IMG/VR virus record: IMGVR_UViG_3300034012_000681
Coordinates: 1 to 36,962 of that record
Origin: a virus
Reading direction: 5' to 3' (one strand)
DNA length: 36,962 bases
Shown here: in pieces, positions 1 to 36,962 of the stretch
Position numbering within the stretch: position 1 is the first letter of the stretch
How the letters are laid out: the number at the start of each line of letters is the position of its first letter
Notes under the pieces: model-generated
Seen by the model: only the letters and a program-made list of their open reading frames with translations
Told to the model about the DNA's origin: nothing
Databases searched by the model: none
Made by a program: the position numbers and the translations under genes

Positions 1-114
1 GTCATCATCAAAACCGATCCCGGCGTTTACGACGAAACGGCTGCGCCGGTACTGCTGTTGTTGCGTCAACGCCTGTCTAGTTCATGGCGTAACGAGCCAG
101 TGGGGGTGAAATAA
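1..114 (+). CDS. 3' part of small 59-aa protein (truncated by window start)
   Basis: The first base falls inside a codon run that matches the last 37 codons of the complete 59-aa gene at 36467-36646, with the same stop TAA. The stop overlaps the ATG of the downstream nuclease gene by one base (TAATG), so the two are probably translationally coupled. The residues visible here are acidic to neutral, with a leucine-rich helix (VLLLLRQRL). No family is recognised. It is the first gene of the rightward early operon once the sequence is joined end to end. Confidence 0.75.
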   Translation, partial: VIIKTDPGVYDETAAPVLLLLRQRLSSSWRNEPVGVK

Positions 115-430
115 TGAGTCACTCTAACATCGTCGGCGGCAGTACCGCCAAGCGCGTCATCAACTGCCCGGCGTCGGTCAAGCTGGTGCAACAGATGCCA
201 CCGCGTCCGTCTTCTGAGCACGCCGACCGTGGTACGCTCCTGCACAATGTGATTGCTGAATTACTGGAGTTCGACAAACCGCCCGCGCAGTGCCTGGGCG
301 CCAAGTACAACGATCAGGTTCTCACGCAGGAGCTAATCGATGAGAAAATTATTCCCGCTCTCGCGGCCCTCGATGTCATTGATCCGGGCAAGCGAATGGA
401 GTACATGGTGGAGACGCGTGTGGGCTTTGG
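1..430. repeat. Left copy of terminal repeat (diverged from right copy)
   Basis: Positions 1-430 correspond to 36533-36962. The first 127 bases are identical. From position 128, inside the DUF2800 gene, I count roughly 53 differences by eye over about 300 bases, interrupted by an identical block of about 48 bases near positions 327-374. A true terminal repeat of one molecule would be identical, so the ends more likely come from co-occurring strain variants closing the same circle. A real tandem paralogue is the alternative. Confidence 0.9.
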
Positions 431-31720: not shown

Positions 31721-31932
31721 ATCCGCAGCAGTCTCCCGAAGAACTTGGTGAGGGACGACTCTTTATAGGGTTTCGTCCCCAGCACCACGTCCTGCATAAA
31801 CCGCTCTTCAGGCGTCGACGCGCGCTGGAATAGTGGCGGATCGTAGAACACGCCAATCCTGACCTTGCCGGTGTCATACGGCGCAGGCTTTACCACAGTG
31901 TTGTCTTGAACGAATCTTCCTTTATGTAACAT
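31717..31932 (-). CDS. Small protein, unknown function (71 aa)
   Basis: The frame is open to 31971, but the ATG at 31932 with AGGAG eight bases upstream is the evident start. The product begins MLHKGRFVQDNTVVKPAPYDTGKVRIGVFYDPP and ends SLTKFFGRLLRI, basic at the end. It contains a PEERFMQDVVLG helix. No family recognised. It is coupled to the next gene by ATGA. Confidence 0.72.
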   Translation of the reverse strand: MLHKGRFVQDNTVVKPAPYDTGKVRIGVFYDPPLFQRASTPEERFMQDVVLGTKPYKESSLTKFFGRLLRI

Positions 31933-32167
31933 CGGTTTTTCTCCTATCTTCATTTGCCCGGCGAACGTCAACCTCTTTCTTTTTTATTAACGCTGCCTCC
32001 TCTTTAGTATAAACCGGCTCCGCGCCGTTGGCCGTTGCTTTCAGCCACACCTCGGCGCTGTAGGCATTACTCTTGCATGAATCACACTTGCGTTGCCGCC
32101 GGATGCCGCCTGGCTGTTGGGTGGTGTTGACTACATGGGTCTTGCTGCCGCAGTTTTGGCACTTCAC
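31922..32167 (-). CDS. NrdR-like zinc-ribbon protein (81 aa)
   Basis: It starts at GTG (GTGA overlap with the upstream stop; GGGGG upstream). The N-terminus MKCQNCGSKTHVVNTTQQPGG...RRQRKCDSCKS has two CxxC knuckles in the spacing of the NrdR zinc ribbon. The ATP-cone domain of NrdR is absent; instead there is a charged tail (KKEVDVRRANEDRRKTDVT). It could bind DNA as a small regulator. Similar single-ribbon proteins are common in phages. Confidence 0.78.
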   Translation of the reverse strand: MKCQNCGSKTHVVNTTQQPGGIRRQRKCDSCKSNAYSAEVWLKATANGAEPVYTKEEAALIKKKEVDVRRANEDRRKTDVT

Positions 32168-34199: not shown

Positions 34200-34468
34200 T
34201 GTTGTTCTCCTGTAGCATAAGCATAAGCGGCTGCTGCAATTTTTCTTGCGCCTTTAGGATTGTCATGTGCAATGCAAAGCCCTATTTTTTCCAACGCCTC
34301 CACCAACTCAGCATTCACCTCATGCAAGCGGCGTAGTTCGGTCGCTGCATCGTGCATATTGTTTGCGCTTGGCTCCCAGCCCATACCTTCAGCGCCAAGG
34401 TTTAAACCTTGAGCATCCGCTTCCAATCTATCAGCCAGCCGCAGGGCTTCGGGTTGTTTGTCAGTCAT
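34196..34468 (-). CDS. Conserved-type small phage protein (90 aa)
   Basis: GGAGG lies seven bases before the ATG, inside the end of the helicase gene. MTDKQPEALRLADRLEAD...ATELRRLHEVNAELVEALEKIG is a pattern very common in phages of betaproteobacteria (from memory) and helps the host guess. It is helical and acidic, function unknown. Confidence 0.82.
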   Translation of the reverse strand: MTDKQPEALRLADRLEADAQGLNLGAEGMGWEPSANNMHDAATELRRLHEVNAELVEALEKIGLCIAHDNPKGARKIAAAAYAYATGEQQ

Positions 34469-35802
34469 TTCAATGCCTCCATTGCTATGTCGGAAATTGC
34501 TCGTTTGTCGTGCAGGGCTGCCCAGATCTTTTCGTCAACTGTCTTGTCGGCGAGTAGGATATAAACCCAGACGTCGTGCAGCTGCCCGGAACGGTGCAGC
34601 CGTCCGATGGTTTGCTCGTACAGCTCAAGGCTCCACGGTAGAGATATAAAAGCCATAACGCATCCTCCGTGCTGTAGGTTAAGCCCGTGTCCTGCGCTTT
34701 TTGGATGGACGGCCAGCAGTTCGATATGTCCAGCGTTCCAGCGTTCAATTGCTTTCTCATCGTCGAGCGTCTGCGCTTTCGGATAGCGACGACGAATCTC
34801 CGCCAGCTCCTCTTGAAACTGGTAAACCAAGATCGTATTGGCATGCTGATTCTCCTCGAGTAACTCATCCAATCGCTCAAACTTGTGACTGCTAAACCAG
34901 ATCGACTGCTTGGTCGTCGCAAACTGCCCAGGCACGGCGGTGGCCGTCCGCTGGCTGTCGTACACAAACCCGCTGGCCATCTGTTGCAACTTTGATGTAA
35001 CAGCCGCCGCGTTGGCGGCCAGCACCTCGGCGGTCGGGAACTGTACCGCAAAGTCGCGTTTCATCTTCTCGTAAGGCTGCCGATCATCCAGCTGGCAGCG
35101 CAACTCGACGACGTGGCAAGGCGGCAACTTGTCGCGGTACTCACCTGGCTCCAGCACATACGTCGCCGGCTTGATCTTCTCCATGATCTGCAGCAGGGCG
35201 CCAGGGCGCGGCATCCACTCGCCAAAGTCGCGGTTCATGCAGACAAAATACTGTTGCAAGAAGGCGCCCTTGGCACGGCCTAAGAGCTTCTCATCGACGA
35301 TCTTGCACTGCCCGAAGACGTCCTCGAGCCCGTTGCTGGTGAACGATCCGGTCAAGCCCCAGCGTATCTTGAACTGGTCGATGATCTTGTGTAGCGCCTT
35401 AAACCGAGCGCCGGATGGGTTCTTGAGCTTAGTCAGCTCGTCAAACACGATGGCATCGAAGTCAGACAAGTCCTGTTCGGTCAACCAGCCAATGTTGTCG
35501 TAGTTAGTGACCACTATCGGCAAAAACGACTCCAGTGCTGCACTTCGTTCCTTGGGCGTGCCTACTGCCACGCGGCAATCTAAGTCAGGCGCCCACTTCG
35601 GCGCCTCGATTGGCCAGACGTCGGTGCAGACGCGCTTGGGCGCCAGCACCAAGAAGCGTCCCACATGGCCATCCATGATCATCGCCTGCATGGCGGCGAG
35701 CGTAATCGCGGTCTTGCCTGCACCCACCGGCGCCAAGATCATCGCGCGGTCACGCTCATACAGAAAGTCAGCCGCTTCGTCCTGGTAAGGGCGTAACTTC
35801 AC
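34465..35802 (-). CDS. SNF2/SF2-type DNA helicase
   Basis: A GTG at 35802 with AGAGG upstream gives 445 aa and begins MKLRPYQDEAADFL, the usual Q-motif-like start of phage SNF2-type helicases. Walker A is APVGAGKT (24-31), motif II reads VFDELTKLKN near residue 116, motif III is LTGSFTSN, and motif VI is QTIGRLHRSGQ near 400. The DELT in place of DEAH is normal in phage members. It is a DNA translocase or helicase working with the VRR-NUC nuclease two genes upstream in replication, recombination or host takeover. Its end overlaps the next gene by ATGA. Confidence 0.9.
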   Translation of the reverse strand: MKLRPYQDEAADFLYERDRAMILAPVGAGKTAITLAAMQAMIMDGHVGRFLVLAPKRVCTDVWPIEAPKWAPDLDCRVAVGTPKERSAALESFLPIVVTNYDNIGWLTEQDLSDFDAIVFDELTKLKNPSGARFKALHKIIDQFKIRWGLTGSFTSNGLEDVFGQCKIVDEKLLGRAKGAFLQQYFVCMNRDFGEWMPRPGALLQIMEKIKPATYVLEPGEYRDKLPPCHVVELRCQLDDRQPYEKMKRDFAVQFPTAEVLAANAAAVTSKLQQMASGFVYDSQRTATAVPGQFATTKQSIWFSSHKFERLDELLEENQHANTILVYQFQEELAEIRRRYPKAQTLDDEKAIERWNAGHIELLAVHPKSAGHGLNLQHGGCVMAFISLPWSLELYEQTIGRLHRSGQLHDVWVYILLADKTVDEKIWAALHDKRAISDIAMEALK

Positions 35803-36125
35803 GGCGCACCTCTCTCGCGGATAGCTGCGGCACAACTTACCCAAGACGCATCGATTCGTTCGCCTTCAGCCTCACACACCTTCGCACACATTTCGCGTTC
35901 GTCTTCCCTAGCCCTTCTCACCGCAACACAAGCAGGGCGATCACAATGTGGGTGGCAGGAATGGATGCTGTCCCATTTAATTCGTTCACGCTCCGCTGCT
36001 GCGACTAAAGCTGCAAAGCGTTCTAAGTGGTCAGCATCCATCACCACGCCCAACGCCATAGTGCCGTGAAATAGCCCGTTGTCGTAGATAATTCGATTAA
36101 TCTCATCTCGGCTTAACCCACTCAT
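35799..36125 (-). CDS. Small Cys/His-containing phage protein (108 aa)
   Basis: GGGAG lies eight bases before the ATG. The product MSGLSRDEINRIIYDNGL... contains HLERFAALVAAAERERIKW, a segment seen in many phage proteins, then CHPHCDRPAC (possible metal site) and CAKVCEAEGERID...AAAIRERG. Role unknown. It lies between nuclease and helicase, so it may be an accessory to them. Confidence 0.75.
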   Translation of the reverse strand: MSGLSRDEINRIIYDNGLFHGTMALGVVMDADHLERFAALVAAAERERIKWDSIHSCHPHCDRPACVAVRRAREDEREMCAKVCEAEGERIDASWVSCAAAIRERGAP

Positions 36126-36375
36126 CTATCTGCTCCCTCGTCCATAAGCACGCGTAGTTCTGCTGCAGCGCAGTAACGTCAGCGGCAAATCGTTTTTGTA
36201 ACGGTGACAGTCGGCCACCTTTCGTTTTCAACTCCACAAACCACGTGGTGCCATCAGGCATACACGCTAAGCGGTCACTAACCCCGCGTTGTGTGGGAGA
36301 CTTGAACTTGTACGCCTTGCCGCCAGCCCGCTCGACAGCCCACACAAAGTAGTTCTCAATTTCTTTTTCAAGCAT
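36103..36375 (-). CDS. VRR-NUC domain nuclease (90 aa)
   Basis: The ATG at 36375 gives a protein with the VRR-NUC core: GVSDRLACMPDG (catalytic Asp34), WFVELKTKGGRLSPLQ (Glu48, Lys50, Gln60). These minimal PD-(D/E)XK nucleases cut branched or flap DNA, such as Holliday junction-like structures. It is the first gene of the leftward operon, with no Shine-Dalgarno sequence; the predicted transcript starts at or next to its ATG, so it may be translated from a leaderless mRNA. Confidence 0.9.
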   Translation of the reverse strand: MLEKEIENYFVWAVERAGGKAYKFKSPTQRGVSDRLACMPDGTTWFVELKTKGGRLSPLQKRFAADVTALQQNYACLWTREQIDEWVKPR

Positions 36376-36381
36376 GGCCGA

Positions 36382-36411
36382 AATATAACACCCTAAAAAA
36401 GTATTTGACAA
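36382..36411 (-). promoter_or_regulatory. Leftward early promoter (nuclease-helicase operon)
   Basis: On the minus strand TTGTCA (plus 36406-36411), an 18-bp spacer, and TATATT (plus 36382-36387) with an upstream TG (extended -10). Six bases separate the -10 from the ATG at 36375, so the start of transcription falls on the start codon. Confidence 0.75.
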
Positions 36412-36426
36412 GGATTATTTTAGGGT
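36390..36426. promoter_or_regulatory. Symmetric operator framing the divergent promoter
   Basis: ACCCTAAAA (36390-36398) and TTTTAGGGT (36418-36426) form a perfect 9-bp inverted repeat with a 19-bp centre. The midpoint, 36408, is also the midpoint of the overlapping -35 boxes. A dimer contacting both arms would control both operons equally. Confidence 0.65.
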
Positions 36427-36433
36427 CTACAGT
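36405..36433 (+). promoter_or_regulatory. Rightward early promoter (replication operon)
   Basis: Consensus -35 TTGACA (36405-36410), 17-bp spacer, -10 TACAGT (36428-36433). It precedes the 59-aa gene and, by joining the ends, the DUF2800-to-primase operon. Its -35 overlaps that of the leftward promoter by five bases. Confidence 0.75.
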
Positions 36434-36466
36434 CGAGGCTCAATCACTACACGGGAGTACAGTCAA

Positions 36467-36646
36467 ATGAATGTAGAAGACATTTTTGATGCAGACGGCA
36501 CAGCCCTGCAAGCAGCATTAGACCTAATCGAGGTCATCATCAAAACCGATCCCGGCGTTTACGACGAAACGGCTGCGCCGGTACTGCTGTTGTTGCGTCA
36601 ACGCCTGTCTAGTTCATGGCGTAACGAGCCAGTGGGGGTGAAATAA
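36467..36646 (+). CDS. Small protein, first gene of rightward operon (59 aa)
   Basis: GGGAG lies nine bases before the ATG. The product MNVEDIFDADGTALQAALDLIEVIIK... ends in RNEPVGVK; it is acidic at the start and helical through a leucine-rich segment. The last 37 codons are identical to those at 1-114. The stop overlaps the start of the nuclease gene by one base. No family is recognised. As the first early gene it might be a regulator, but there is no clear DNA-binding motif. Confidence 0.75.
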   Translation: MNVEDIFDADGTALQAALDLIEVIIKTDPGVYDETAAPVLLLLRQRLSSSWRNEPVGVK

Positions 36647-36962
36647 TGAGTCACTCTAATATCGTCGGCGGTTCCACCGCCAAGCGCGTCATCAACTGCC
36701 CGGCGTCGGTCGCCTTGTGCGCCAAGATGCCGCCCAAACCCTCTAACGAACACGCCGACCGCGGCACGCTGCTGCACAATGTGATCGCCGAGTTGCTGGA
36801 GTTCGACAAGAAGCCCGAGCAGTGCATCGGTGCCGCATACAAGGATCAGGTACTCACACAGGAGCTAATCGATGAGAAAATTATTCCCGCTCTCGCGGCC
36901 CTCGATGAAATTGATCCGGACAAGCGAATGGAGTACATGGTTGAGACTCGCGTTGGCTTTGG
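36533..36962. repeat. Right copy of terminal repeat (diverged)
   Basis: Counterpart of positions 1-430, offset 36532. Identity is complete over 36533-36659 and about 83 percent by hand count over the remainder of the nuclease gene, with a fully conserved block of about 48 bases near 36859-36906. If the ends are joined, the unit length is about 36,532 bases. Confidence 0.9.
36646..36962 (+). CDS. DUF2800-like nuclease, 5' part, variant allele (truncated by window end)
   Basis: The first 105 codons of a second version of the gene at 114-1235. Differences cluster around residues 23-35 (VALCAKMPPKPSNEH against VKLVQQMPPRPSSEH) and 55-66. The start, the first cysteine (VINCP, C18) and the HNVIAELLEFD segment are kept. 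Many differences are synonymous, so both alleles are probably functional. Either a strain variant at the assembly junction or a tandem paralogue. Confidence 0.75.
   Translation, partial: MSHSNIVGGSTAKRVINCPASVALCAKMPPKPSNEHADRGTLLHNVIAELLEFDKKPEQCIGAAYKDQVLTQELIDEKIIPALAALDEIDPDKRMEYMVETRVGF

Follow-up and report, generated by a model that had tools for sequence, protein, structure and literature searches.

Back-to-back sigma70-like promoters with a common -35 region and a probably leaderless nuclease mRNA in an uncultured phage

Introduction

PRM and PR of phage lambda are divergent early promoters. The cI mRNA of lambda is leaderless (PMC11514452), and leaderless transcripts are also described for the C genes of restriction-modification systems, where they begin at the AUG or a few nucleotides before it (PMC4824078). 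In pLS20, the divergent promoters Pc and Pr overlap and the polymerase itself acts as the switch (PMC4207663). Our literature searches on promoter occlusion in phage and on divergent phage promoters with a leaderless transcript found nothing.

We analyzed the IMG/VR record IMGVR_UViG_3300034012_000681, from an uncultured phage, over its 36,962 nt (hereafter the window). Between two of its operons lies a locus that resembles Pc/Pr (PMC4207663) in having two overlapping divergent promoters of the vegetative sigma type, an extended -10, and A/T tracts located 5' of a -35. The overlap in pLS20 is probably that of a -35 on a -10, whereas here it is that of a -35 on a -35. Moreover, control in pLS20 involves operators, looping, and the regulator RcoLS20, whereas here we found neither a regulator among the ORFs scanned nor a conserved operator. 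As for PRM and PR, one leaderless and one leadered transcript are predicted from the sequence to arise from divergent early promoters. In contrast to lambda, the leaderless gene encodes a nuclease and not a repressor, the -35 boxes overlap, and there are no CI-like operators. The predicted transcript start, at the AUG or just before it, is like that of the C genes (PMC4824078), but C proteins are HTH regulators and the product here is a VRR-NUC endonuclease. The genes for a DNA polymerase, a VRR-NUC endonuclease, and a DEAD/DEAH helicase are clustered as in Burkholderia phage BcepC6B and Bordetella phage BPP-1, although in BcepC6B the replication genes are all on one strand, without the divergent split seen here. 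Both parts of the arrangement have precedents (Pc/Pr of pLS20 and cI of lambda), and this locus combines them in a phage replication module.

Results

The locus and its host

The minus side starts with the gene of a VRR-NUC-type endonuclease of 90 aa (36103..36375, minus strand), which matches the endonuclease family phrog_93 (3.9e-25) and is annotated as VRR-NUC in relatives. It is followed at its 3' side by an SNF2/DEAD helicase gene (34465..35844, minus strand). The plus operon of this phage starts with a 59-aa ORF (36467..36646, plus strand), followed by a gene for a DUF2800 nuclease-like protein (36646..36960, plus strand) and then by the genes of a methylase, a family A DNA polymerase, and a primase. 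The DUF2800 gene is truncated by the end of the window, but the ends of the contig overlap and a full copy is found at 114-1235. The content of the slot occupied by the 59-aa ORF differs among relatives: counted from a fixed point, the distance to the DUF2800 start is around 30-37 nt in half of them and 559-1019 nt in four, while most of the remaining ones have one small ORF and a distance of around 200-250 nt.

The two ends of the window (1-430 and 36533-36962) repeat each other, with 377 of the 430 positions identical overall: around 127 identical bases are followed by many mismatches. This probably reflects a circular or permuted genome in a mixed-strain assembly, in which case the last 300 bases may be those of another strain. 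The presence of Rz-like spanin genes, together with nuclease relatives that are mostly found in betaproteobacterial MAGs, suggests that the host is probably a betaproteobacterium. A search for near-identical sequences among cultured or annotated phages gave no match. The nearest annotated relative, MW202483, has 61-62% protein identity, and its minus -10 could not be placed.

Two predicted promoters on a common -35 block

The plus -35 box of the replication operon, TTGACA (36405..36410, plus strand), and the minus -35 box of the nuclease-helicase operon, TTGTCA (36406..36411, minus strand), have five bases in common and form a joint block TTGACAA (36405-36411) centred on 36408. The plus -10 box TACAGT (36428..36433, plus strand) follows a spacer of 17 bp and gives a predicted start around 36440. 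The minus -10 box TATATT (36382..36387, minus strand) follows a spacer of 18 bp, is preceded by an extended -10 TGn (36390-36388, minus strand), and gives a predicted start around 36375. Both opposite promoters have a -35/-10 spacing within 16-18 bp, and their polymerase sites overlap.

The initial annotation had placed the -35 boxes at these same, correct coordinates, and had described a mirror-symmetric promoter that admits a single polymerase at a time and acts as a compact switch that one dimer could control. The two promoters do have a common centre, but the symmetry is inexact by one base (spacers of 17 vs 18). Double occupancy is implausible given this geometry, and mutual exclusion would be the expected outcome. 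The overlapping -35 boxes do belong to a compact divergent promoter that separates the DUF2800/DNA polymerase/primase operon from the nuclease-SNF2 helicase operon, but control by a dimer was not borne out by the relatives (see below). The same annotation had also reported a perfect 9-bp inverted repeat, which is indeed present and also centred on 36408. Its left arm is ACCCTAAAA (36390..36398, plus strand) and its right arm, in plus-strand letters, is TTTTAGGGT (36418..36426, minus strand).

When sigma70-like sites were ranked across the whole 37-kb window, the minus promoter came first and the plus promoter third. The matrices are approximations for Escherichia coli and may not fit a host that is probably a betaproteobacterium. 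Shuffled windows attain maximum scores similar to that of the real one and contain equally high-scoring single promoters. Hence, rank alone is weak evidence, the case for either promoter does not stand on its score, and it is conservation that carries the argument.

The promoter pair is conserved in relatives

We collected relatives in two ways. A search with the nuclease protein, where the promoter was not used as a criterion, provided 80 viral loci, and a search with the pattern of the core provided 73 stretches. Since the first three T of the right arm are part of the latter pattern, only the outer parts of the arms are informative in that set. The overlapping -35 boxes, the A/T flanks, and both -10 boxes recur in relatives retrieved by the nuclease protein alone, and the divergent pair is kept across dozens of relatives despite a divergence of their coding DNA to 74-80%. 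The overlap of the -35 boxes is therefore conserved, which the initial annotation had proposed to check. The plus -35 is invariant in 23 distinct relatives of the TTGACAA type, and the plus -10 is found as TACAGT, CATAGT, or TATTCT. In the intergenic DNA, a constant block (AAAAAGT-N-TTTGACAAG-N-ATTATTT) and constant -10 regions are separated by two short variable stretches, which correspond to the outer half of each arm. Among 43 loci of the TTGACAA type, the mean pairwise identity is 1.00 in the -35 core (which defines the group) and 0.91 and 0.88 in its A/T flanks, for 0.65 at third codon positions. More divergent relatives have the same architecture in different letters (TTGCACAA). At the other extreme, the entire 49-bp promoter is identical in four phages whose nuclease DNA is merely 74-78% identical (77-82% in a second alignment). 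Judged by these relatives, the pair of divergent promoters is a genuine biological feature, presumably with activity in both directions, and the conservation pattern indicates that the pair, and not the arms, is the non-random feature.

The region is shorter in around 30 of the 80 relatives (e.g., TTTAGCACAGTTTTATTTTCTGTGCTATAG), where the extended -10 boxes are around 20 nt apart and there are no overlapping -35 boxes. Occupancy by two polymerases still looks impossible there, and competition between them would have another geometry. In L047, L058, and similar loci, the region upstream of the nuclease has a second type of promoter, in which TAGCACA...TGTGCTA symmetry surrounds two extended -10 boxes, whose spacing is sharply reduced in L058.

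Since TTGACAA is self-complementary around its central base, a second -35 comes for free, and one could argue that there is a single functional promoter and that the other merely results from the palindromic -35. We regard this as extremely unlikely: both -10 boxes hold their position while their sequence changes, the minus one keeps a distance of 6-7 nt to the ATG, and the adjacent gene on each side needs a promoter.

A/T tracts within the spacers

The proximal UP subsite, at -46 to -38 of rrnB P1, has the consensus AAAAAARNR (quoted in PMC2801614). One base 5' of the plus -35, and within the minus spacer, the tract AAAAAAGTA (36395..36403, plus strand) matches this consensus at 9 of 9 positions, in the order AAAAAAGTA-T-TTGACA. 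One base 5' of the minus -35, and within the plus spacer, AAAATAATC (36413..36421, minus strand) matches it at 7 of 9, in the order AAAATAATC-C-TTGTCA. When 28 distinct sequences are aligned on their centre, agreement with the consensus is highest at the expected offset, with 8.29/9 on the plus strand and 6.89/9 on the minus strand. The tracts are likely alpha-CTD contacts, i.e., putative UP elements, each lying inside the spacer of the partner promoter. This position would explain both the conserved block and the variable stretches that start just outside it. Part of the match is due to generic A/T richness, and A/T-rich spacers can act without alpha-CTD binding.

The inner block AAAAAGTaTTTGACAAGgATTATTT is more conserved than the -35 hexamers alone require, and a host or phage regulator could bind it, rather than the arms, and switch the operons. 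The initial annotation recognized no repressor in the genome. This broadly holds for HTH proteins, since no HTH-family repressor was matched in the scanned subset of the phage ORFs, but the phage does encode an 81-aa protein with an NrdR-type N-terminal zinc ribbon (31922-32167, minus strand; PF22811, 9.6e-7, above the curated cut-off). The protein is around 71-79% identical in many relatives and is a candidate small DNA-binding protein. Yet, the conserved flanks can be explained by proximal UP elements with no need for a regulator, the window has no second copy of the block, and its other TTGACAA/TTGTCAA sites lack the flanks. We thus consider a regulator of the inner block unlikely.

The inverted repeat is not conserved

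The inverted repeat had been proposed as the operator of one dimeric repressor governing both promoters. Its perfect 9-bp arms are centred exactly on the common -35, their exact spacing gave no chance match in 100 shuffles, and four other contigs have identical arms. Perfect 9-bp inverted repeats are otherwise ordinary in the window (11 for 6.9 +/- 2.5 expected). Over 74 contigs, window included, we found 6 variants of the left arm and 14 of the right one in 23 combinations, and both perfect arms together in only 5 (the window and the four others). ACCCTAAAA is paired with TTTTAGGGT in 5 of 18 cases, for 22 of 56 among the other left arms. In other words, the right arm is absent from 13 of the 18 carriers of the left one, and the left arm from 22 of the 27 carriers of the right one, which amounts to free assortment (Fisher P = 0.88). 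The mean complementarity of the arms (5.65/9) is even below that obtained by random re-pairing (5.95). The outer arms have mean pairwise identities of 0.59 and 0.63 in the 43 TTGACAA-type loci, close to the value for third codon positions. In the relatives with the most similar nucleases (96-98% aa), AGGGT is replaced by CGGGG or CGGGA. Finally, half-site matches in the rest of the window do not exceed the range seen in shuffles, with no enrichment that would point to a second arm-like operator.

Lack of conservation of the arms in relatives was the outcome that the initial annotation had named as refuting its proposal, and it is what we observe: the arms vary, without covarying, while the promoter and the coding regions are kept. 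Given that both arms are rarely together, assort freely, and vary in their outer halves like third codon positions, an operator made of these arms is very unlikely and would have to exist in just a few genomes. We have rejected it in favour of a perfect palindrome that is probably coincidental, one of several combinations of arms. The identity of the 49-bp promoter in diverged phages and the variation of the arms suggest that left and right halves appear to be swapped as short modules around a common core.

We also looked for the arm pattern in viral contigs, allowing gaps of 10-30. This gave 49 stretches, most of them unrelated repeats with other spacing, which rules out the motif as a general phage operator. 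Inverted repeats of ACCCTAAAA/TTTTAGGGT with a span of 28-31 bp occur in unrelated viral contigs (L155, L162, L168, L171, and others), where some form families with conserved flanks.

A probably leaderless nuclease mRNA

The minus -10 lies 6-7 nt before the ATG of the nuclease in 25 of the 32 distinct 30-nt upstream sequences, and this distance holds for five different hexamers (TATATT, TAAACT, TATACT, TATTAT, and TATGAT). None of these 25 sequences has a Shine-Dalgarno-like motif, whereas all 37 distinct plus leaders have one, which in the window is GGGAG (36453..36457, plus strand) before the first plus gene. With the -10 at 36387-36382, the predicted minus start, around 36375, is the A of the ATG. 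An earlier start of the nuclease is excluded by in-frame stops just upstream of the ATG in several relatives. Taken together, the position of the -10 and the lack of a Shine-Dalgarno indicate that the nuclease mRNA is probably leaderless, a feature that the initial annotation had missed.

The exceptions include L025, which also has TATGCT at 6 nt from the ATG, and in L017, L039, and L079 the promoter is not directly upstream of the nuclease. In L017 (2829-3020), a gene of around 63 aa is inserted between the two; this gene has a leader that includes a strong Shine-Dalgarno, AAGGAGG, and at its 3' end it overlaps the ATG of the nuclease.

Discussion

The explanation that we find best overall, and probable, is that of two competing back-to-back sigma70 promoters with embedded UP tracts, a leaderless nuclease, and no arm-bound dimer. 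Two host sigma70 promoters with five -35 bases in common would thus form a compact bidirectional early promoter, where the alpha-CTD contact of each sits in the spacer of the other. One bound polymerase would occlude the other promoter, and the output would therefore be split by intrinsic promoter strength and not by a dimer on the inverted repeat. The minus transcript would start at the nuclease AUG, or within one base of it, and undergo leaderless translation, while the plus transcript would have a leader of around 27 nt with a Shine-Dalgarno.

The comparison of relatives shows how a symmetric promoter that is functional can be told apart from a chance palindrome, and points to a group of phages that apparently express a nuclease gene from a leaderless mRNA, a feature conserved among them. 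The 23 arm haplotypes around one core also provide a small natural library of promoter variants for polymerase competition at back-to-back promoters. More tentatively, the locus might be a regulator-free bidirectional switch, with coinciding -35 boxes, embedded UP elements, and one side feeding a leaderless nuclease mRNA. If this were true, polymerase competition would determine the balance between the two early operons, perhaps together with changes in ribosome state late in infection that favour leaderless translation, and the outer segments of the spacers would be free to vary and recombine.
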